Below are positions 10,836 to 42,283 of a DNA stretch of 64,000 bases, one piece after another. The stretch covers positions 62,001 to 126,000 of the forward strand of contig NZ_JACXJA010000010.1 of NCBI RefSeq assembly GCF_014705615.1. Reading direction: 5' to 3'. This DNA is from Paenibacillus oceani (GTDB taxonomy: Bacteria > Bacillota > Bacilli > Paenibacillales > NBRC-103111). Below the pieces are notes generated by a model, which saw only the letters and a list, made by a program, of their open reading frames with translations, was not told where the DNA came from and searched no databases. The number at the start of each line of letters is the position of its first letter. Position 1 is the first letter of the stretch. The translations under genes were made by a program, and so were the position numbers.

Positions 10836-11170
10836 GCTTATTCATTCTCCTCTTATGATTTCATTGTTTACTTTTTATCCTATGCGTTTACCTATTTATT
10901 GGACTGCAAAATTTACAATAACAGGCTATAGCCTAATAAATGATGACAGAACAAATACAAAAAATTTACTATTCATGCAGCCGAGTCGGCTTTGGTTGAA
11001 GAACCAAAATAACGGAACGCCTACCCGCTCATATTATGGATAAGTCCACCACATAGGACTAAATGGATAGAAAAAACTTCCGATAATATAACTACAGACC
11101 TATACAAACTATCTATACTTATTGATATATTTTTCCTTGTAAAGATTTGTTGAATAAAATAGAACATTGG
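10836..11170. other. Intergenic region upstream of the c-di-GMP riboswitch
   Basis: No gene seen. It contains two adjacent hairpins at about 10980-11007 (GCCGA-gt-CGGC-like, and TTTGGTT-gaag-AACCAAA). Next to them is the 20-base sequence at 11009-11028 that recurs at 16631-16650. Confidence 0.4.
11009..11028. repeat. 20-base sequence repeated at 16631-16650
   Basis: ATAACGGAACGCCTACCCGC occurs here and in front of the oligoendopeptidase gene. At the second site it forms the left arm of a strong hairpin. Here the pairing arm is absent. Confidence 0.5.
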
Positions 11171-11262
11171 AATAAAGGCAAACCCGCTGAAAAGCGGAGA
11201 CGCAAAGCTACAGGGGCTAAAACGGACTTGCACGTCCGCGATGCCAGCCAGCTGCCCGAAAC
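11171..11262 (+). ncRNA. Cyclic di-GMP-I (GEMM) riboswitch
   Basis: The aptamer has the conserved GEMM-I elements in order: GGCAAACC, the P2 hairpin CCGCT-gaaa-AGCGG, GACGCAAAGC, GGGGCUAA, the P3 hairpin CGGAC-uugcac-GUCCG, and the closing GCCAGCCAGCUGCC. An intrinsic terminator follows within 15 bases, so c-di-GMP would switch transcription of the gene at 11548. Such riboswitches often control adhesins and other surface proteins, which fits the secreted product downstream. Confidence 0.85.
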
Positions 11263-29630: not shown

Positions 29631-31961
29631 TTATTTGTCCAGCGGTTTGGCATGAGGAGCATAATCCGCAACAATCAGAACATCCATATGCCGTGCATGA
29701 CGGAGCACCGTTTTGACGACTGAGCCATGGCGCACAAGTTTCCAAACTTTCCTTGCAGATTGCCCCAAAACCATCTGTGTTGCCATTTTCTCGTCCGATT
29801 TGCCGATCAGAACGGAAGCCACATCTCGTTCCCTATCAATAAACTGCACTTCGAATATACCTCCCAATCGCATGGACAGTTCTTTTATGCGTTCGATTCG
29901 TTTGTTCACTTCATCCGGAATTACACTTCCTCTGTGAACATAAATCACATACCACTCGGCCTTCAAACGATAGGCGATACGAAATCCCCTTCGAATCAAA
30001 CGCTCCGCGTTAAGACTTGCCGTCACGCCAACACAAATCGTTTCTTTTTTTCGCCATGGACCACGAAGCGAGGCTTTGCGCTCCCAGGACTCCAATCGCT
30101 CATCTACATCATCCGCAATCTCCCGCAGTGCAAGCTCACGCAGCGCAATCAGGTTTCCTGTCTTGAAAAAAGAATTCAATGCCTGTTCTATTTTATTGGC
30201 TGCATAGATCCGTCCCTCTCTCATGCGCTGCTGCAAGGATGAAGGCGATACATCAATGAGCTGGACTTCGTCCGCCAAATGCAGGATATGGTCCGGAACG
30301 GTTTCGTGCACCCGAATACCTGTAATTTGTTCAACTGCATCATTCAAGCTTTCGAGGTGTTGCACATTCATCGTGGAAATGACGGAAATCCCGGCATCCA
30401 AAATGCTCAGCACATCTTCATAACGTTTGCGATTCTTGCTGCCGGGTACATTGGTATGGGCTAGCTCGTCAATTAATACGAGCTCCGGATTCCGCTTCAG
30501 AATCGCTTCCACGTCCATTTCCTCGAGTTCCACCCCCCGGTAGTGAGTGTTGCTTCTGGGTATCATCGGCAACGCGCCTACCTGTTCCCATGTTTCGGTG
30601 CGGCCATGTGTCTCCAGCAGGCCGATTATGACATCGATCTGTTTTTTTAACAGATCGTTCCCCTCCCGCAGCATCGTATACGTTTTCCCTACGCCGGGCG
30701 CAGAGCCGATATAGACTTTAAATTTGCCGCGTCTTATTTTTTGTATTCTTTCTTTCATCTCCTGATCCGTCAGCCGATGATAGGAGCTCGGCTCCCGCTT
30801 TTGCTGCGTTCCGGCCGGCAAGATCCGCCTGCCTTCCTGTTCCGAGCGGTCTGCAATAAACAAGAGGTCGACATTTTTAATTAGGTTCAACAGCCGGTTT
30901 GCGATCGATCCCCTCCAAAACTCTTGCCATGGACTCATCTTGGAATGCCCCATGACGATACGGGTGACATTATGACTGGCCGCAAAGTGAACCAATTTCC
31001 GAGGCAGAGCGCGCCGGGAAGCCAGCGGGATTTCTTCGAATGTCCCCTCTACTTTTTTGATCATTTGAAGAAGCGAACGTTTAAAGGTCGAAGCCTCCTT
31101 AGACAACGTTTTTTTAGGATTGATAAAGGTCACGACCAGAAGATCGCCACCAAGCCGTTTGGCAACCTGCTGACCTCTGCGAACATAGATCGAACCGTTC
31201 CAATGGTATTGCGCAGATACAAGAATACGTTCCGTTGCACCGGATGGACCAAATAACCCTGCCTCCTCCCGATGCTTTTCCAGCGATTCATTGACCCCTT
31301 CGGCTACAAGCCGCAAGGCAAGCTCTCGAAGCTTCGCCAAATTTCCCCGTTTGAACAGGGCAGGATCCGGATGCTGGAAACGGCCATCCGATAATCGCTC
31401 CAGTATCGCCTCCGGCGTTACATCAATTAGGCGTACCTCGTCCGCCCAATCCAGGGTATCGGAAGGAATGGTATGTTCTGCAGCAATGCCTGTTAACTTA
31501 TAAGCGAGCTCGGTTACGCCTTCCAGTTCATAGACATTAACCGTAGCGATTACGCTGATTCCTTTATCAAGAAGGCAACGAATGTCTTCCAGTCTTGTCG
31601 GATGGAGCGCCCCTTTCCGGTTACGATGAGCCAGTCCGTCTACGAGGACAACTTCCGGATTGCGTTCATACAACCGCTCCAGATTTAAATCTTTGTGCTC
31701 GACACCATCCTTCACCCAATGGATGCTCGGAATCCGCTCCAAGTCACCGATCTGCTCCAAAGTGCCGGGACGTTGTCTGGTTGAAACGGCACAAATAACC
31801 ACATCAATCCCTTGCCGCTTTAACATTTGTCCTTCCTGAAGCATGTGATACGTTTTACCTGAACCGCTGACCGCACCAATGTAAATTTTTAATCGGCCTC
31901 GGTGAAGCCTGGAAATGGAATATAAAATTTCTTCTGGCGTTTTTCGTTTGAATGGCTCCAT
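29631..31961 (-). CDS. kdpD: Tandem-duplicated KdpD sensor protein without histidine-kinase domain
   Basis: 776 residues built from two copies of the KdpD N-terminal module (KdpD P-loop domain plus universal-stress-type domain). Copy 1 (about 1-385) is degenerate, with P-loop GAVSGSGKT and VLVDGLAHRNRKG. Copy 2 (about 400-776) is canonical, with GSAPGVGKT and VLIDELAHTNVPGS. There are no membrane helices, GAF, HisKA or HATPase domains. These parts are encoded separately at 37147-38679. Start behind AAGGAG. It is the last gene of the kdp operon, about 80 bases after kdpC. It presumably works in trans with the separate kinase in potassium or c-di-AMP sensing. Confidence 0.85.
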   Translation of the reverse strand: MEPFKRKTPEEILYSISRLHRGRLKIYIGAVSGSGKTYHMLQEGQMLKRQGIDVVICAVSTRQRPGTLEQIGDLERIPSIHWVKDGVEHKDLNLERLYERNPEVVLVDGLAHRNRKGALHPTRLEDIRCLLDKGISVIATVNVYELEGVTELAYKLTGIAAEHTIPSDTLDWADEVRLIDVTPEAILERLSDGRFQHPDPALFKRGNLAKLRELALRLVAEGVNESLEKHREEAGLFGPSGATERILVSAQYHWNGSIYVRRGQQVAKRLGGDLLVVTFINPKKTLSKEASTFKRSLLQMIKKVEGTFEEIPLASRRALPRKLVHFAASHNVTRIVMGHSKMSPWQEFWRGSIANRLLNLIKNVDLLFIADRSEQEGRRILPAGTQQKREPSSYHRLTDQEMKERIQKIRRGKFKVYIGSAPGVGKTYTMLREGNDLLKKQIDVIIGLLETHGRTETWEQVGALPMIPRSNTHYRGVELEEMDVEAILKRNPELVLIDELAHTNVPGSKNRKRYEDVLSILDAGISVISTMNVQHLESLNDAVEQITGIRVHETVPDHILHLADEVQLIDVSPSSLQQRMREGRIYAANKIEQALNSFFKTGNLIALRELALREIADDVDERLESWERKASLRGPWRKKETICVGVTASLNAERLIRRGFRIAYRLKAEWYVIYVHRGSVIPDEVNKRIERIKELSMRLGGIFEVQFIDRERDVASVLIGKSDEKMATQMVLGQSARKVWKLVRHGSVVKTVLRHARHMDVLIVADYAPHAKPLDK

Positions 31962-32043
31962 GTTTGTCTCCTTTTTCCCTGAAGCAGCTTGCAAACGGAA
32001 ATTCCCTGCCCGATAAAAGCAGGCAGGGAGATGCCTATTTCGT

Positions 32044-32616
32044 TTACCTTGTAAGCAAACGCTGCAGTTCGATATTGAGCTGCAATACATTTACCGCAGG
32101 TTCGCCTAAGAAACCAAACGTCCGATGGCTCGTTTGTTCTTGCACAAGTCTTTCCAAATGTTGCTGTTCAATACCGGTCAAGTGACAGATCCTTGGAATT
32201 TGTGCACGTGCCGCCTCCGGGCTGATATCGGGGTCCAAGCCGGAGGCGGAGTTGGTAATCAGATCAATCGGAAGGCCGCTGACAGGAACTTCGGGATTAT
32301 TGATCTTCCATTCTTCTAAGGATTTCGTTATTCTCTCCAACAATGCAGGATGTGACGGCGCATAGTTCGGCGATCCCGATCCGTCCGCCTGATAATCGAT
32401 GCTGGAGATACGGCTATGGAAAAACTCAGGTTCGGAAAACAACTGTCCAATCAGCCTCGAGCCAATAACATTTCCTTTTTCGTCTTGAATCAAGCTCCCC
32501 TCAGCTTGTTCGGGGAACACGATCTGTGCGATTCCGGTAACTGCAAGGTTATAGCCGAGTCCGCATAATAACATGAATAGCAAGCTGGTTCGTAGACTGG
32601 ATGTCAATAATTTCAT
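32044..32616 (-). CDS. kdpC: Potassium-transporting ATPase subunit KdpC
   Basis: 190 residues with one N-terminal membrane helix (about 8-30) and a periplasm-type soluble domain. It carries the family signatures GSxLIGQ (GSRLIGQLF), the ASGLDPDISPEAARAQ block and the C-terminal LGEPAVNVLQLN. It stabilises the KdpFABC complex. It follows kdpB with an 18-base gap. Confidence 0.93.
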   Translation of the reverse strand: MKLLTSSLRTSLLFMLLCGLGYNLAVTGIAQIVFPEQAEGSLIQDEKGNVIGSRLIGQLFSEPEFFHSRISSIDYQADGSGSPNYAPSHPALLERITKSLEEWKINNPEVPVSGLPIDLITNSASGLDPDISPEAARAQIPRICHLTGIEQQHLERLVQEQTSHRTFGFLGEPAVNVLQLNIELQRLLTR

Positions 32617-32634: not shown

Positions 32635-34662
32635 TCATACCCACATATGGATAACAAGATCGATGAGTTTGATTCCAGCGAAGGGAACAAGAACACCGCC
32701 TAAGCCATAAATCAACAAATTGCGTTTTAGCAGTTGTGCCGAACTGACTGCTTTATACGCCACTCCCTTCATCGCAAGCGGAATTAATAGCGGGATAATA
32801 ATCGCATTAAAGACAAGCGCAGATAAAATAGCCGACATCGGCGATCCCAACTGCATGACATTCAGAGCATTCATCTCCGGAATGGCGAGCACAAACATGG
32901 CAGGCAGGATGGCAAAGTATTTGGCAATATCATTGGCGATGCTGAACGTCGTCAGTGCGCCGCGGGTCATCAGAAGCTGCTTTCCTATCGCTACAACTTC
33001 AATAATTTTGGACGGGTCGGAGTCTAGATCCACCATATTCGCCGCTTCCTTGGCCGCTACCGTACCGCTATTCATCGCAATTCCCACATCCGCCTGCGCC
33101 AATGCAGGCGCATCGTTTGTGCCGTCACCCGTCATAGCCACCAGTTTACCTTCTGCCTGCTCTCGCCGAATCACAGCAATTTTATCTTCCGGCTTGCTCT
33201 CTGCGATAAAGTCATCAACGCCCGCCTCCCTCGCGATGGTAGCGGCAGTAAGCGGGTTATCGCCTGTACACATCACCGTTTTAATGCCCATTTGGCGCAT
33301 TTGGTCAAAACGTTCACGCATCCCGGGCTTGACCGTATCTTTTAAATAGATGACGCCGTAAATGCGGTTATCGACAGCGACGGCCAGCGGCGTGCCCCCG
33401 GCAGAAGCTACTTTATCAGCTGCCACATCCAAATCGGTCGGTATGATCCCGTTCTGGGCAGCTACCCATTTTTTAATCGCGTCGACGGCCCCTTTGCGCA
33501 CTTTTCGGCCATCCGACAAATCGATCCCACTCATTCGTGTTTCCGCTTTGAATTCGATGAACTCTCCACCGGCAGCTACTGATCCGTTATACCCGAGTTC
33601 CAGCTTTTTCATCAAGTCCAGCACGGAACGCCCTTCCGGCGTCTCATCCTTCATTGAACCAATCGCCGCCCACTCGCCTAGTTCAATCGGTTTGGCGCCG
33701 CCAACCGGGATAAATTCACTCGCCATCCGGTTGCCATATGTGATCGTACCCGTTTTGTCCAGAATGATTGTATTAATATCCCCCGCAGCTTCCACAGCTT
33801 TCCCCGACATGGCAATTACGTTATACCGGGTCACCCGATCCATTCCCGCTATTCCGATCGCAGACAATAACCCTCCGATTGTGGTTGGGATCAGGCAAAC
33901 AAGCAGGGCAATCAGGACGGGAACATCAATTTCAATGTTGAGGTAGTCCCCGAAAAACGGCAGTGTCACCACGACAATCAGGAAAATCAGGGTCAAACTG
34001 ATCAGAACCGTATTCAGGGCAATTTCATTCGGCGTTTTTTGCCGTTTAGCCCCTTCGACAAGTGAAATCATCCGATCCAGAAACGATTCTCCCGGATCGC
34101 TGGTGATCCTTACTTTGATCTGGTCGCTGATGACGTGCGTTCCGCCTGTGACAGAACTGAAATCGCCGCCAGCTTCCTTAATGACGGGCGCGGATTCTCC
34201 CGTAATCGCTGATTCGTCGACCGACGCGAGCCCTTCGACAACCTCGCCGTCCCCCGGAATCATTTCTCCTTGTGTTATGACGACAATATCTCCTTTACGA
34301 AGATCGGTTGAAGCCACCTGCTTGATCTCTCCGCCGACCAATTTGTTTGCAACAATGTCTTTTTTTGTCCGCTTTAACGAATCCGCTTGCGCCTTACCTC
34401 TTCCTTCAGCCAACGCCTCCGCAAAGTTCGCGAACAACAACGTCACCAGCAAAATGGCGGCAACCACTATATTGAACCAACCCGGTGTCGAGCCTTGGAA
34501 CGCTCCGGGAAAAAAGCATAGAAATAATGTGATGCCAAATCCTATCTCCACTACAAACAGGATCGGATTACGGAACATGACTCTAGGGTCCAGCTTCATG
34601 AACGCTTCCTTGACAGCATTCCGGATAATCGACCCGCTAAGTCCGGATGTTTTAGTTTGCAT
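32635..34662 (-). CDS. kdpB: Potassium-transporting ATPase ATP-binding subunit KdpB
   Basis: 675-residue P-type ATPase. It has actuator motif TGES, phosphorylation motif [21 protein letters not shown] in the nucleotide domain, [12 protein letters not shown], and the Kdp-type transmembrane helices. It uses ATP to drive K+ uptake through KdpA. I start it at 34662 (MQTKTS) behind GGAGG. Two in-frame upstream starts lack a spaced RBS. Confidence 0.94.
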
Positions 34663-34688
34663 CGTGAGAACCTCCATTACAATCAAAC

Positions 34689-36359
34689 TTATGGTTTCAA
34701 TGTCAACTGTTCTGCAATTGGGCCGAGTACGAGACTTGGGAAAAACGTCAACGCTCCAACGATCAGCACAGCAGCCAAAAATACAATCGCGAACAATCCC
34801 GTGTCCGTCCTAAAGGTGCCTGTCGTTTCCGGCACCGTCTTCTTGGCAGCAAGCGACCCGGCTACAGCAAGCAAAGCGACTATGGAGAAATATCTGCCTA
34901 AAAACATAACGACTCCGGTTGTCGTGTTCCAGAACAATGTATTGTCACCTAGCCCTTCGAATCCGGAACCGTTGTTCGCAGCAGACGAGGTATACTCGTA
35001 CATCGCTTGCGTCAGGCCGTGAAAGCCCGGATTGGACAGCGTATCGGGATAGCTGAACAGCGCAATTGCCGTTGGAACCAGAATGAGAACAGGCGAAACC
35101 AGCATCGTGACGGCAATCAGCTTCATTTCCTTGCCTTCGATTTTTTTGCCCAAAAATTCCGGTGTACGCCCAACCATCAGACCGGAGAGAAAGACGCCGA
35201 TCATCGCATACATCAGTACGTTCATAAAGCCGGCTCCTACGCCGCCAAAAGTCGTATTCAACATCATGTTGGCGATGGTGATCAACCCGGCGATTGGCGT
35301 CAGCGTATCATGCATCGCATTGACCGCCCCCGTCTCGGATGCCGTTGTTACGACTGAATACAAGGAAGATAGTGCAACTCCGAAGCGAACCTCCTTGCCC
35401 TCCATACTGCCTTGTTCATGCTGAATGCCGATTGCATTCAGAGCCGGATTGCCAGCATGTTCAGCCGTCAGCGAAACGCCCAGCAAAACGATAAAGAGCA
35501 TTGCCATAGAAACAAACAGTACCCGTCCCTGCTTGGCATTCCCGACCATCTTACCGTATGCAAAAGGTAGGGATGTCGTAAGTAACATCATTAGCAGAAT
35601 CTGAATCAAATTACTAATTGCATTAGGGTTTTCAAACGGGTGAGCCGAGTTGACGCCCATAAATCCCCCGCCGTTATTCCCGAGCTCCTTAATGGACACG
35701 AACGAACCCATCGGGCCTCTGGCAATGGTTTGTTCACCGCCTTGAATCGTTTGAGCGACCGCCGCCGGTTCAAGCGTTTGTGGAACGCCTAGCGCAACAA
35801 AAATAAGGGCCGTAACAAAAGCAACCGGCAACAATACCCGTGTAATAGCACGAGTCATATCGACGAAAAAATTGCCTAACGGTTTTCTTGCCAGCCCGCG
35901 CATAAAAGCGAACACCGCTGCAAGCGCGGTAGCCGGAGCCGTAAACATCATAAAGACGATCGCAATCATTTGCGACAAGTACGATAATCCGCTCTCCCCG
36001 CTGTAGTGCTGCAAATTGGTATTTGTCATAAAGCTGATTGCCGTATTAAAGGCTAGGCTCGGGTCCATATTGGCAATACCGGCCGGATTCAACGGCAAAT
36101 ACGCCTGTGTTCGAAACACGAGATATACGAGCAGGATCATCATGGTATTACTAACGACTAAGGTCACAGTGTATCTCTTCCACGTTTGATTTTCTTGGCG
36201 AATGCCTCCGATGGCAAAGATCATTCTCTCTAATGGACGATAGTATCGATCAAGTCCTGACGGGTTGTAATCAAATGCCTTGGCCATATATAGTCCAGTA
36301 GGCCGAGCCAACAGCAGGACCAGCAACAATGTAACGACAATGGCAATCATAACGGCCAT
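34689..36359 (-). CDS. kdpA: Potassium-transporting ATPase channel subunit KdpA
   Basis: 556-residue membrane subunit related to Trk/Ktr channels, with four pore repeats. Filter-loop segments include [41 protein letters not shown] and [13 protein letters not shown]. It selects and conducts K+ in the KdpFABC pump. GGAAGGAG lies before the ATG. kdpF ends 34 bases upstream. Confidence 0.94.
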
Positions 36360-36721: not shown

Positions 36722-36899
36722 ATGCTGCCTCTCTTCTGTCGCTTGCGAGGTTAGCTGTCGGATTCGGACGGTGAGAGTCGCCCTACCTGCCAACGAGTCG
36801 ATCCCGGTGGCAGGATTCACCCCGCACAGAAGCTTGCTCTCACACAAACCCCCGCAAATGGTTCCCCCGTTTGCCTGCAAGGCAATTCAGCGAATAAAA
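36722..36899 (-). ncRNA. c-di-AMP (ydaO/yuaA) riboswitch of the kdp operon
   Basis: The minus strand carries the ydaO landmarks in order: CGCUGAAU at the 5' end, CGGGGGAACCA, GGGGUGAAUCC, ACCGGGAU, and CCGAAUCCGACAGCUAACCUCG, AAGCG at the 3' end. High c-di-AMP would turn off the operon, matching the role of this messenger in limiting K+ uptake. The expression platform between 36600 and 36720 is not obvious. Possible hairpins there lack a clear T-run. Confidence 0.9.
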
Positions 36900-37146
36900 G
36901 GGTGAACATTGAATTCGAATCGTATGTTACGCCGTATGCAAATAATTGTAAAGCAATGCACGGCGGGTATAGGTTTAAATTGTATTGCCTAGTCGCAACT
37001 GGATCTCGCATCGCTCAGGATCTTTAATTTCCTCCTTTTTACTCTTTTTTTCTATTGTTTTCGTGATTTTTACGGAACTTTTACCCCCGGAAACCGTTTC
37101 TTTTACGCTTTATTTACAGTACAGTTAGGGTAAACGTGAGTCATGA
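36900..37146. promoter_or_regulatory. Divergent kdp operon / kdpDE control region
   Basis: A minus-strand promoter candidate for the riboswitch transcript is TTTACA, 17 bases, TAACAT, around 36926-36957. At 37068-37117 the plus strand has an array of TTTTAC direct repeats in 11-base phase, described as a finding, which is a likely response-regulator binding array. No gene. Confidence 0.5.
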
Positions 37147-38679
37147 TTGGGATTGGAGGCAACGACCATAACAACTTCCCGTTCAACATTCCTTTGGCAC
37201 CCTTATGCCATCACCGCACTGCTCATTGTTGGGATGACGATCCTATTAAAACCGTTTGGGTTAGCGTTTGAAACAGCCAATATTGCGTTGATCTTCCTAC
37301 TCCCCGTCCTATTAAATGCCGCAGTTTGGGGACTGCGACCGGCATTTTTTGCTGCCTTTCTTGGTGTACTGTCCTTTGACTTCTTTTTTATTCCGCCGGT
37401 ACTCAGTTTCACGGTCGCGGATTTAAGGTATCTGATATCCTTCGTCGTTTATTTGGTGGTCGCGATTTTAACAGCCAGCTTGGCCGCGCGACTCAAACAA
37501 CAAGTGCTTTATTCCAAGCAAAAAGAGAAGCAAACCGCCACGCTTTATGCGCTCAGTAAACAGATTAGCTCTGCCGTCGATATGCCGTCATTGCTGGACC
37601 GTTTTTCCCGACAGCTATCTGAAATCCTGAAAATGGACGTCACGATCTATCTGGCTGAAAACAACAATGAGCTTACGCTCGCCCGTCGTTCCAGCCCATT
37701 TCCCCATCATGTACAGGAACAAGCCGAGCTTGCGCTTGCTAAACGAATCTACAAAGAAGGTAAGTCATTGGAAAAAAGAATTTCACATACCGGAGGACTC
37801 ATCGGGCATTTTATCCCGCTTCAGATTGAGGAACACAGGTTCGGAGTTATGGTTCTTATTTCCAGGCACGAGCGAAGCGAAACCTTACCGGAACAAGCCT
37901 TGCTATTTGAAGCGGTTGGCGGATTGGCGGCCAGTGCAGTCGCACGTGTCAAGTTCGAGGAAGAGGCAAAGCTGGCCCATCTGACCGCCGAATCCGAGCG
38001 GCTTCGCATCGCCATATTGAACTCCGTCTCGCACGAGCTTCGTACACCGCTCGCAGCCATTATCGGTTCGGCAACCGGGCTGATCGATGGCGAGAAACTG
38101 TTTACCGCCGAGGAACGAATGGAACTTCTTGTGACCATTCGCGATGGCGCGCTTCGTATGAATCGGTTGGTTTTGAATTTGCTGGGTATGGCCCGGCTCG
38201 AAGGCGGCATGCTTACCTTACGGAAAGATGAGTGCGAATTGGAGGAAATCATCGGCTCTACCTTCATGCAGTTGAAGGGCTACCAGGAGCATCGCACGAT
38301 CCGCCTTGACCTGCCCGATGAAATCCCCATCTTTCTTGGCGATGAAGCTCTGCTTGAGCAAATGCTGATCAATGTGATCAGCAATGCGATCAAATATAGC
38401 CCTGATTACAGCGAGATCATCCTGTCTGTCAAAGCAGGCAGTGAATTCATCGAACTGACTGTTGCCGATGAAGGTGTCGGGCTGAAGGAAGACGAGTTGG
38501 AGCGCATTTTTGAAAAATTTTATCGTTCCGAACAAACCGGGCACCTCACGGGAACGGGCTTGGGGCTGGCCATCAGCAAAGGGATCGCCGAACTTCATGG
38601 AGCAACCCTCTCCGCCCGGCCTAACGCGCCAAAAGGAGCCATCATCACAATATCGCTTCCGCTTGTCCAAGATAACTAA
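37147..38679 (+). CDS. kdpD: KdpD-like histidine kinase lacking the N-terminal KdpD/USP domains
   Basis: 510 residues. Four membrane helices of the DUF4118 type (about 18-110, with FDFFFIPP) are followed by a GAF-like domain (about 140-270), HisKA (NSVSHELRTPLAAI) and HATPase (NAIKYSP, DEGVGL, GTGLGLAI). It is the kinase half of KdpD and pairs with kdpE 31 bases downstream. The sensor half is encoded in the kdp operon. The start is uncertain. TTG at 37147 has no RBS, whereas GGAGG (37154-37158) is correctly spaced before an ATA codon at about 37167 (giving x-TTSRST). Confidence 0.85.
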   Translation: MGLEATTITTSRSTFLWHPYAITALLIVGMTILLKPFGLAFETANIALIFLLPVLLNAAVWGLRPAFFAAFLGVLSFDFFFIPPVLSFTVADLRYLISFVVYLVVAILTASLAARLKQQVLYSKQKEKQTATLYALSKQISSAVDMPSLLDRFSRQLSEILKMDVTIYLAENNNELTLARRSSPFPHHVQEQAELALAKRIYKEGKSLEKRISHTGGLIGHFIPLQIEEHRFGVMVLISRHERSETLPEQALLFEAVGGLAASAVARVKFEEEAKLAHLTAESERLRIAILNSVSHELRTPLAAIIGSATGLIDGEKLFTAEERMELLVTIRDGALRMNRLVLNLLGMARLEGGMLTLRKDECELEEIIGSTFMQLKGYQEHRTIRLDLPDEIPIFLGDEALLEQMLINVISNAIKYSPDYSEIILSVKAGSEFIELTVADEGVGLKEDELERIFEKFYRSEQTGHLTGTGLGLAISKGIAELHGATLSARPNAPKGAIITISLPLVQDN

Positions 38680-38710: not shown

Positions 38711-39409
38711 ATGTCAAATCATGAACATCATGTTCGAGTACTTGTTGTGGAAGACGACACTCAAATACGGAAGTTGCTCAAGGTGACGCTGCAAGCCCAT
38801 AAATACAACGTATACGAAGCGTCAACCGGAGAAGAGGGACTGGAGCAAGTTTCTCTCGCCGCTCCGGATCTCGTGATACTCGACTTGGGATTGCCGGATC
38901 TATCCGGCATGGATGTACTGAGGGGTATTCGGGAACGGTCCGATTTGCCAGTAATCGTCCTGACTGCCATTGACCGGGAAGCGGATAAAATCTTTGCGCT
39001 GGATAATGGGGCCGACGATTATGTGACCAAACCTTTCGGAATGGGAGAGCTAGTGGCGCGGATTCGCGTAGCGCTGCGACACTCAGCCAGGGCTCAAGAA
39101 GAGCCGGTTCTGCACCATGGGGAACTAACGATCAATATTGCGCAAAGAAGTGTGGAATTGAAGGGAGAACCGGTCAAGCTATCTCCGACGGAATTTGATT
39201 TATTGAAAATTCTGGCTATCCATGCAGGGAGAGTCATTACAAAAAGCCAATTGCTGAAGCAAGTCTGGAACGAGCACGATGATTCCAATCGGCATTATTT
39301 ACGCATATACATCGGGCACTTGAGGAAGAAGCTTGAAGACAATCCCGCAGATCCCAAGTACATTGTAACAGAATCCGGCGTTGGATATCGCTTTCTCGCT
39401 GCTGAATGA
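38711..39409 (+). CDS. kdpE: KdpE response regulator (OmpR/PhoB family)
   Basis: 232 residues. The receiver domain has acidic pocket VVEDD, phosphoacceptor Asp in VILDLGLPDLSG (about 56), LTA and the K of YVTKPF. The winged-helix output domain (about 130-230) includes LSPTEFDLLKILAIHAGRVITKSQLLKQVW. AGGAGG precedes the ATG by 9 bases. It is expected to activate kdp transcription. The phased TTTTAC repeats upstream of its own operon suggest autoregulation as well. Confidence 0.92.
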   Translation: MSNHEHHVRVLVVEDDTQIRKLLKVTLQAHKYNVYEASTGEEGLEQVSLAAPDLVILDLGLPDLSGMDVLRGIRERSDLPVIVLTAIDREADKIFALDNGADDYVTKPFGMGELVARIRVALRHSARAQEEPVLHHGELTINIAQRSVELKGEPVKLSPTEFDLLKILAIHAGRVITKSQLLKQVWNEHDDSNRHYLRIYIGHLRKKLEDNPADPKYIVTESGVGYRFLAAE

Positions 39410-39722: not shown

Positions 39723-40388
39723 ATGATCACAACATCTAACTCCAAGATAACCGAAACTGAAGAAAAAATACTCGTATGTCTGTATTACGGACCAAGCTCA
39801 GAGTTATTAATTCGCCGCGGCTGGAAGCTGGCTACCGCTTTACAAGCACCGCTTACCTTGCTTACGGTAGATCCGATTCATGATAACCGGTATAGTGAGG
39901 CGCGGGAGAAAAACATGGCTTTTTGGAGCTCCATGGCCGAAACATTACAAGCAGAACTGATTGTGGAAAAAAGTGATTCCCGAAATGTCGCAGAAGTTAT
40001 TGCAGACATTGCAAACGAAAAGCGTATCACACAAATTATTATCGGGCAGTCGGCTCAAACCAAATGGGAAGAGATTACGAAAGGTTCCATTATTAATCAG
40101 CTTCTCCATTTGATCGAAGGTGTAGATATTCATATCGTATCTGTACGGCGCGAGAGGCAAAAACAAGACGAAGACTATGAAGCAGGGGTTAAAGCCTATC
40201 TTGTAAGAGACGGGAACCGCTTATTACTGCGATTGAATTCCCTTGCTCCTGACAAGATCGAAGGCGTCTTTTACCGAAGCGTTCATACAGACTTCAACAC
40301 TGGCGTTTTTAAGGCAGATGATGGCGGAATGAAATATCTTATATGTGATGGTATCGCATCTACTATCGATACAAAGCCCTCACCTTAA
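39723..40388 (+). CDS. Stand-alone KdpD-type universal-stress-domain protein
   Basis: 221 residues. Residues about 12-140 match the universal-stress-type domain of KdpD (KILVCLYYGPSSELLIRRG, then IIIGQSAQTKWEEITKGSIINQLL and VDIHIVSV). About 80 residues of unrecognised sequence with a small beta-rich segment follow. It is the third copy of this domain in the potassium island, and other KdpD USP domains bind c-di-AMP. Whether this one does is unknown. AGGGG lies 9 bases before the ATG. A terminator overlaps its stop codon. Confidence 0.7.
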   Translation: MITTSNSKITETEEKILVCLYYGPSSELLIRRGWKLATALQAPLTLLTVDPIHDNRYSEAREKNMAFWSSMAETLQAELIVEKSDSRNVAEVIADIANEKRITQIIIGQSAQTKWEEITKGSIINQLLHLIEGVDIHIVSVRRERQKQDEDYEAGVKAYLVRDGNRLLLRLNSLAPDKIEGVFYRSVHTDFNTGVFKADDGGMKYLICDGIASTIDTKPSP

Positions 40389-41877: not shown

Positions 41878-42130
41878 AACCATCATCCCCTTTCCCAAGC
41901 TCTGCTCAAATAATTGAAACCAGTTAAGCTTTATCTTCGTATTATTACCTGAAAGTACCTTTGCATTCAACCCTAAAGCCGCCTCGCATCCGAAGCACTT
42001 TCATCTCCCTAGCTGAAACAAGGTGAGGCGACGCGGAATTATAACTATGCGGGCAATCGATAATGGATAATCCGGGTCATCTGTTTACTTTCGAAATGAA
42101 CTGCTTTATGATAGGGTACAACAACTTCAT
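41878..42130. other. Intergenic region between divergent ktr genes
   Basis: No gene. It contains an imperfect repeat (CGCCTCGCATCC and GAGGCGACGCGG) near 41977-42037. Promoters of both ktr transcripts must lie here, but no clear -10/-35 pair could be fixed. Confidence 0.35.
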
Positions 42131-42283
42131 ATTCATCGCTTAATCCTTAATGAAGGAGCGGGGGAACCAACGAAGCGTTTTTCGCTTCAGGGGTAAATTC
42201 TTTCTTTTGCAGAGAGAACGGGAACTCTCAGACCCGAATCCGACAGCTAACCTCGTAGGCGTCATGAGAGAGAACATGAATGC
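42131..42283 (+). ncRNA. c-di-AMP (ydaO/yuaA) riboswitch of the ktrAB operon
   Basis: Landmarks in order: P1 arm ATTCAT, CGCUUAAUC, GAGCGGGGGAACCAA, a variable hairpin, GGGUAAAUUC, GACCCGAAUCCGACAGCUAACCUCGU, GGCG, and the closing arm ATGAAT. It closely resembles the Bacillus ydaO element. A strong terminator follows, giving an OFF switch of potassium channel expression at high c-di-AMP. Confidence 0.92.

Follow-up and report, generated by a model that had tools for sequence, protein, structure and literature searches.

A predicted double KdpE operator between the divergent kdpFABC and kdpDE operons of Paenibacillus oceani

The stretch of Paenibacillus oceani DNA analysed here, referred to as the window, is 64 kb long and belongs to a genome of 8.05 Mb in 94 contigs. 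It contains a kdp locus in which the kinase part of KdpD and the N-terminal parts of this protein are encoded apart, on either side of kdpFABC. The genes and features of the locus are the following:

29631-32090, minus strand: KdpD-like non-kinase sensor, with two stretches matching KdpD (PF02702), plus Usp
32044-32616, minus strand: kdpC (PRK00315), downstream of kdpB
32635-34686, minus strand: kdpB (NCBIfam TIGR01497), downstream of kdpA
34689-36359, minus strand: kdpA (NCBIfam TIGR00680)
36724-36902, minus strand: c-di-AMP riboswitch (RF00379) in the kdpFABC leader, 88.8 bits with a covariance model for a cut-off of 38
36924-36952, minus strand: kdpF promoter TTTACA-17-TAACAT, sigma-A-type by consensus, which precedes the riboswitch leader
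36953-37068, no strand: spacer from the kdpF -35 to box 1, 116 bp (116-119 bp in 20 loci), much less conserved in sequence
37069-37085, plus strand: predicted KdpE box 1, half-sites TTTACG (37069-37074) and TTTACC (37080-37085) in 11-bp phase
37102-37118, plus strand: predicted KdpE box 2, half-sites TTTACG (37102-37107) and TTTACA (37113-37118), 33 bp from box 1
37120-37125, plus strand: candidate kdpDE -10, TACAGT, a TANNNT conserved directly after the last half-site
37147-38679, plus strand: kdpD kinase part (DUF4118-GAF-HisKA-HATPase)
38714-39409, plus strand: kdpE, response regulator

The true start of the kdpD kinase is uncertain and is perhaps at 37168, where the window has ATA and its relatives have, after GGAGG, either ATG (P. 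algorifonticola and Paenibacillus sp. MSJ-34) or TTG (Cohnella phaseoli). A separate short protein (39723-40385) resembles the end of the KdpD-like non-kinase sensor family. Elsewhere in the window, a second c-di-AMP riboswitch (42127-42277) lies before a TrkA-like gene and a TrkH-type potassium transporter, and a c-di-GMP-I riboswitch is located at 11167-11259. The window KdpA shares 73-82% identity with that of four genomes of the family that belong to other genera, and 55-57% with that of four genomes of the same genus. In addition, P. algorifonticola and Cohnella phaseoli have KdpD kinases that are 95% identical to that of the window (L010-L013, L220 and L228 were compared for the locus), which together with the KdpA identities suggests that the kdp locus was likely acquired by horizontal transfer.

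Between the two operons, and in the same orientation as kdpD, TTTTAC starts at positions 37068, 37079 and 37101 and ATTTAC at 37112, while the slot at 37090 reads GAAACC. An earlier reading of the sequence only had pointed out these positions and their 11-bp phasing, and both are confirmed by the letters. Four copies of TTTAC in 11-bp phase were obtained in 0/5000 dinucleotide shuffles of each of the two regions considered (36903-37146 and 37003-37131), and a looser test, which accepted every 5-mer composed of three or more different letters at phases of 8-14, likewise gave 0/5000. Over the 64-kb window, TTTTAC-N5-TTTTAC with up to one mismatch has two matches, both in the array (mean of 0.22 in 100 shuffles, one of which reached two). 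It is extremely unlikely that the phasing arose by chance in an AT-rich promoter (a UP element or bent DNA). The region is T-rich and single pairs do arise by chance, but the shuffles never reproduced the array, the half-sites of both boxes are conserved in an alignment of 17 kdpDE-type loci, and the array tracks KdpE among genomes, as described below.

The array is made of two pairs, TTTACG-N5-TTTACC and TTTACG-N5-TTTACA, which are 33 bp apart in the window. The sequence-only reading had seen in 37090 one empty slot of a continuous array. GAAACC does occupy this position, but among 20 loci the pairs lie 32 bp apart in 7 and 33 bp apart in 13, which indicates that the slot is the spacer between two sites; the idea of five slots with one lost repeat was dropped for this reason. 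As a genome-wide motif, the single pair TTTAC-N6-TTTAC was rejected as unspecific (21 matches versus 17 for the reversed control). The double array, for its part, has one match in its own genome and its reversed control has none. With a sequence-only model of the array, the window copy is retrieved from this genome at E 9.5e-12, and no second match was obtained there below E 0.2, the next one being at E 0.2.

The distribution of the array was then compared with that of KdpE. KdpA was found in 85 of 104 genomes of the family, and upstream DNA was taken for 84 of them (G108 was left out), in stretches of ~3.2 kb for most genomes, 1.1-2.4 kb for three and 5-7 kb for three. A KdpE orthologue was called when the best match had at least 61% identity, the other kdpA-bearing genomes having at most 49%, and the array was called when a double array with no more than one mismatch over four TTTAY half-sites was present upstream of kdpA. 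The phased repeats proved to be conserved in the related genomes that have KdpE: the array lies upstream of kdpA in 36/36 KdpE-positive genomes and in 0/48 KdpE-negative genomes (Fisher p 1.4e-24, an overstated and only indicative value, since the genomes are not phylogenetically independent), with 25 of the 36 positives in one genus. It is exact in 35 of these positives and has one mismatch in G100. Genera g1, g7, g21 and g22 hold both KdpE states, and the array agrees with KdpE in each of them.

The nearest negatives are G008, whose KdpE-like protein is 49% identical, and the second kdpA copy of G032; both have arrays with two mismatches and were counted as negative. G060 and G109, which are partial or of low completeness, are also among the negatives of this count, and G086, which has a KdpE remnant with a stop and no kdpA match, was left out. 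In the whole family, the exact array pattern was matched 57 times over the 104 genomes, and its reversed control twice; two family matches located in KdpE-less genomes (G018 and G083) are unlike the others and were treated as chance. At the level of the order, 112/392 genomes have array matches and 13/392 have matches to the reversed control; some of the array matches are plain tandem repeats of 11 bp, which do not represent operators and were set aside. When 36900-37400 was searched by DNA similarity against 59 genomes, three matches were obtained besides that in its own genome, all to the kdpD-side part of this segment.

The array can also be compared with a known KdpE site. In Escherichia coli, this site has been experimentally defined as TTTATA-N5-TTTACA, and R193, R200 and T215 are the DNA-contact residues of the regulator (PMC3264566). 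Both boxes of the window consist of two T-rich 6-bp half-sites of this TTTATA/TTTACA type, with TT first and a gap of 5 bp, and the array is situated at kdp promoters (assigned by consensus only): it precedes kdpDE and lies 145 bp away from the kdpF -10. The window KdpE aligns with E. coli KdpE (4kny_A) over nearly its whole length. When the residue numbers are mapped onto this alignment, a step made in the present analysis, the recognition helix HYLRIYIGHLRKKLE and a T of the wing align with R193, R200 and T215, with R, R and T conserved. The match of the half-sites, the distribution of the array and the conservation of the contact residues support the earlier proposal, and we infer that the array is very probably bound by the adjacent response regulator KdpE, of which it is the predicted operator.

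Boxes bound by PhoP and WalR in Bacillus are likewise phased T-rich repeats, and a PhoP-like box had been put forward as the other candidate. However, the KdpE-lacking genomes have no array at kdp, even though many of these 48 genomes have OmpR-type regulators that are 38-49% identical to KdpE, and the half-sites match the KdpE site. Judged from these kdp loci, a PhoP-like or WalR-like box for another regulator of the OmpR family is thus very unlikely.

The array precedes the KdpD kinase in kdpDE-type loci, which include the window, and kdpFA in kdpA-type loci, usually with a small ORF first in genus g21. Many kdpA-type loci have a TATTA-like candidate -10 located 8-9 bp after the last half-site. 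Beyond the family, 20 further array loci were picked by eye from the order-wide matches: 13 before a KdpD-type kinase, 6 before kdpFA and 1 (L189) beside kdpFABC without a kinase. The 13 kinases comprise 10 of the split type (L191 with a longer N-terminus), 2 full-length KdpD (L198 and L202) and 1 other (L199). KdpE is present in all of 19 named loci from Paenibacillus and Cohnella. Eight of these have kdpA divergent to the kinase, and in all 8 the array is at the kinase; the remaining 11 have a KdpD N-terminal part directly upstream of the kinase and no array within the stretch examined, outside of which their kdpF promoter, if present, would lie. Extra arrays were also observed in genus g21, before CorA-like transporters (L204 and L206) and before small proteins with a YYLG..P..LNP...YEWFGV-like start (L205, L207-L210, L212 and L213); the only one of these proteins that was scanned, in L205, had no Pfam match.

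On the kdpD side, TACAGT is the best -10 by conservation: in 17 loci, the A and the last T of the motif are invariant and the first T is found in at least 90%. It is a candidate and is not firmly fixed. The array locus of P. pinisoli has no TANNNT after the last half-site, and other candidates are situated ~5-7 bp further on, where close relatives have TATAGT- or TATGGT-like sequences. With this candidate -10, which abuts the last half-site, box 2 is placed between -35 and -10, an unusual position for an activator. KdpE would probably autoregulate kdpDE from the array; the position of box 2 is compatible with either activation or repression, and we lean toward activation because the candidate promoter has a poor -35 (TTTCTT).

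On the kdpF side, the start of the array is separated from the -10 of the promoter (TTTACA-17/18-TANNNT) by 145-148 bp in 20 of the 22 array loci that share the window layout. In the two exceptions, G163:C7 and G254, kdpF is not adjacent and no kdpF promoter was found at that distance, as would be expected if these loci lack kdpF. The median pairwise identity of the spacer is ~45%. Eighteen loci allowed the array-promoter distance to be compared with the leader between the -10 and the riboswitch, and the SD is 0.98 bp for the former and 77.5 bp (range 21-253) for the latter; when three near copies of the window locus are removed, these values are 0.80 and 80. The length of the spacer is thus held while its sequence drifts, which speaks for a joint function of the array and the kdpF promoter. 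In genome G163, the two operons are separated: contig C12 carries kdpFABC with its promoter and an array at 148 bp, with no kdpDE beside it, and on contig C7, kdpDE has an array of its own and an unrelated gene as neighbour. In G254, kdpDE keeps its array and no kdpA match was found. These two genomes indicate that each operon can keep the array without the other.

Within the spacer, positions 37020-37045 and their equivalents form a partly conserved T/C-rich stretch in which CTC recurs at intervals of ~10 bp; several relatives read ATCTTC..TTTTCCTC..AATACTC there. The length of the spacer may therefore be fixed by a factor other than KdpE. One could accordingly suppose that the array controls kdpDE only, that another element or protein sets the spacer length, and that kdpFABC depends on a KdpE-independent promoter and on the riboswitch. 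The array does point towards kdpD, in G254 it is retained before kdpDE, and the kdpF promoter type (TTTACA-17-TAAGAT) also occurs in some KdpE-less relatives, so that it does not obviously need KdpE. Nevertheless, this arrangement appears rather unlikely in view of the constant distance in 20/22 loci and of the array retained at kdpF in G163; moreover, as the array model gave no other match below E 0.2 in the window's own genome, KdpE has no other strong predicted target there.

A model in which KdpE acts in both directions can be described as follows. Under potassium limitation, phosphorylated KdpE would most likely bind as two head-to-tail dimers spaced by about three helical turns, each of them occupying one pair of TTTAC half-sites in 11-bp phase. 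From this position, it would autoregulate kdpDE and act on the divergent kdpFABC promoter at a fixed distance of ~146 bp (14 helical turns), and the c-di-AMP riboswitch of the kdpFABC transcript would add a second level of gating. An action of KdpE on kdpF as well is moderately favoured by the conserved geometry. The chances are about even that the array provides a shared two-way control, in which the autoregulation of kdpDE is combined with a reversed, length-locked (14 turns) control of the riboswitch-gated kdpFABC. As a whole, the explanation that combines a double KdpE operator, kdpDE autoregulation with an action on kdpFABC, and riboswitch gating is held with good confidence.

The presence of the riboswitch beside KdpDE deserves attention. 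According to the accessible text of a 2019 study, c-di-AMP riboswitches were absent from all genomes with an effective KdpDE, and mutual exclusion of the two was suggested for kdp (PMC6488665). Here, 17 loci with the riboswitch, the kinase and KdpE were found (the window, G089, G034, G013, G004, G110, G001, G327, G362, G371, G376, G297, G270, P. algorifonticola, Paenibacillus sp. MSJ-34, Cohnella phaseoli and P. pinisoli). The split between the kinase and the N-terminal parts of KdpD may be the reason why such systems were not counted as effective. These 17 loci bear directly on how cells combine two potassium signals and, if the proposed mechanism is true, a single locus would integrate c-di-AMP with the two-component signalling of potassium, against the suggestion of mutual exclusion.

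By 2017, only four species had a KdpE site identified at kdpFABC (PMC5401905, in its available part), and neither a double KdpE site nor a KdpE operator of Paenibacillus is described in any title or abstract opening listed by the searches of open-access papers. The array offers a precise operator model for bacteria of the Paenibacillus and Cohnella type, including natural cases of separated operons, and its length-locked spacer makes it possible to test whether a response regulator acts across 14 helical turns.

The predicted operator shares with the kdpFABC site of E. coli (PMC3264566) its 6-bp T-rich half-sites, its 5-bp spacer and the contact residues of the regulator. By contrast, the window locus has two complete sites, 33 bp apart, that lie beside kdpDE and in the orientation opposite to kdpF. 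The DNA upstream of kdpF in E. coli K-12 (L215) reads ATTTTTATACTTTTTTTACACC, and the second position, 32 bp downstream of the known pair, holds only TTTGCG-N5-TTTGCA. The latter resembles a degenerate second pair with unchanged spacing, although chance is possible for one sequence; the accessible portion of PMC3264566 makes no mention of it. In Staphylococcus aureus, KdpE has been reported at its own kdpDE promoter (Xue et al., 2011, cited in PMC5401905), a position like that predicted for KdpE at the window locus, whereas in Mycobacterium smegmatis binding of KdpE to the kdpDE promoter was not observed, according to the available part of the same source (PMC5401905). Finally, the kdpFABC operon of Bacillus thuringiensis likewise has a c-di-AMP riboswitch in its leader, but strain BMB171 is reported to be without kdpE (PMC6488665, in its accessible text), whereas the window locus has both the riboswitch and KdpDE.
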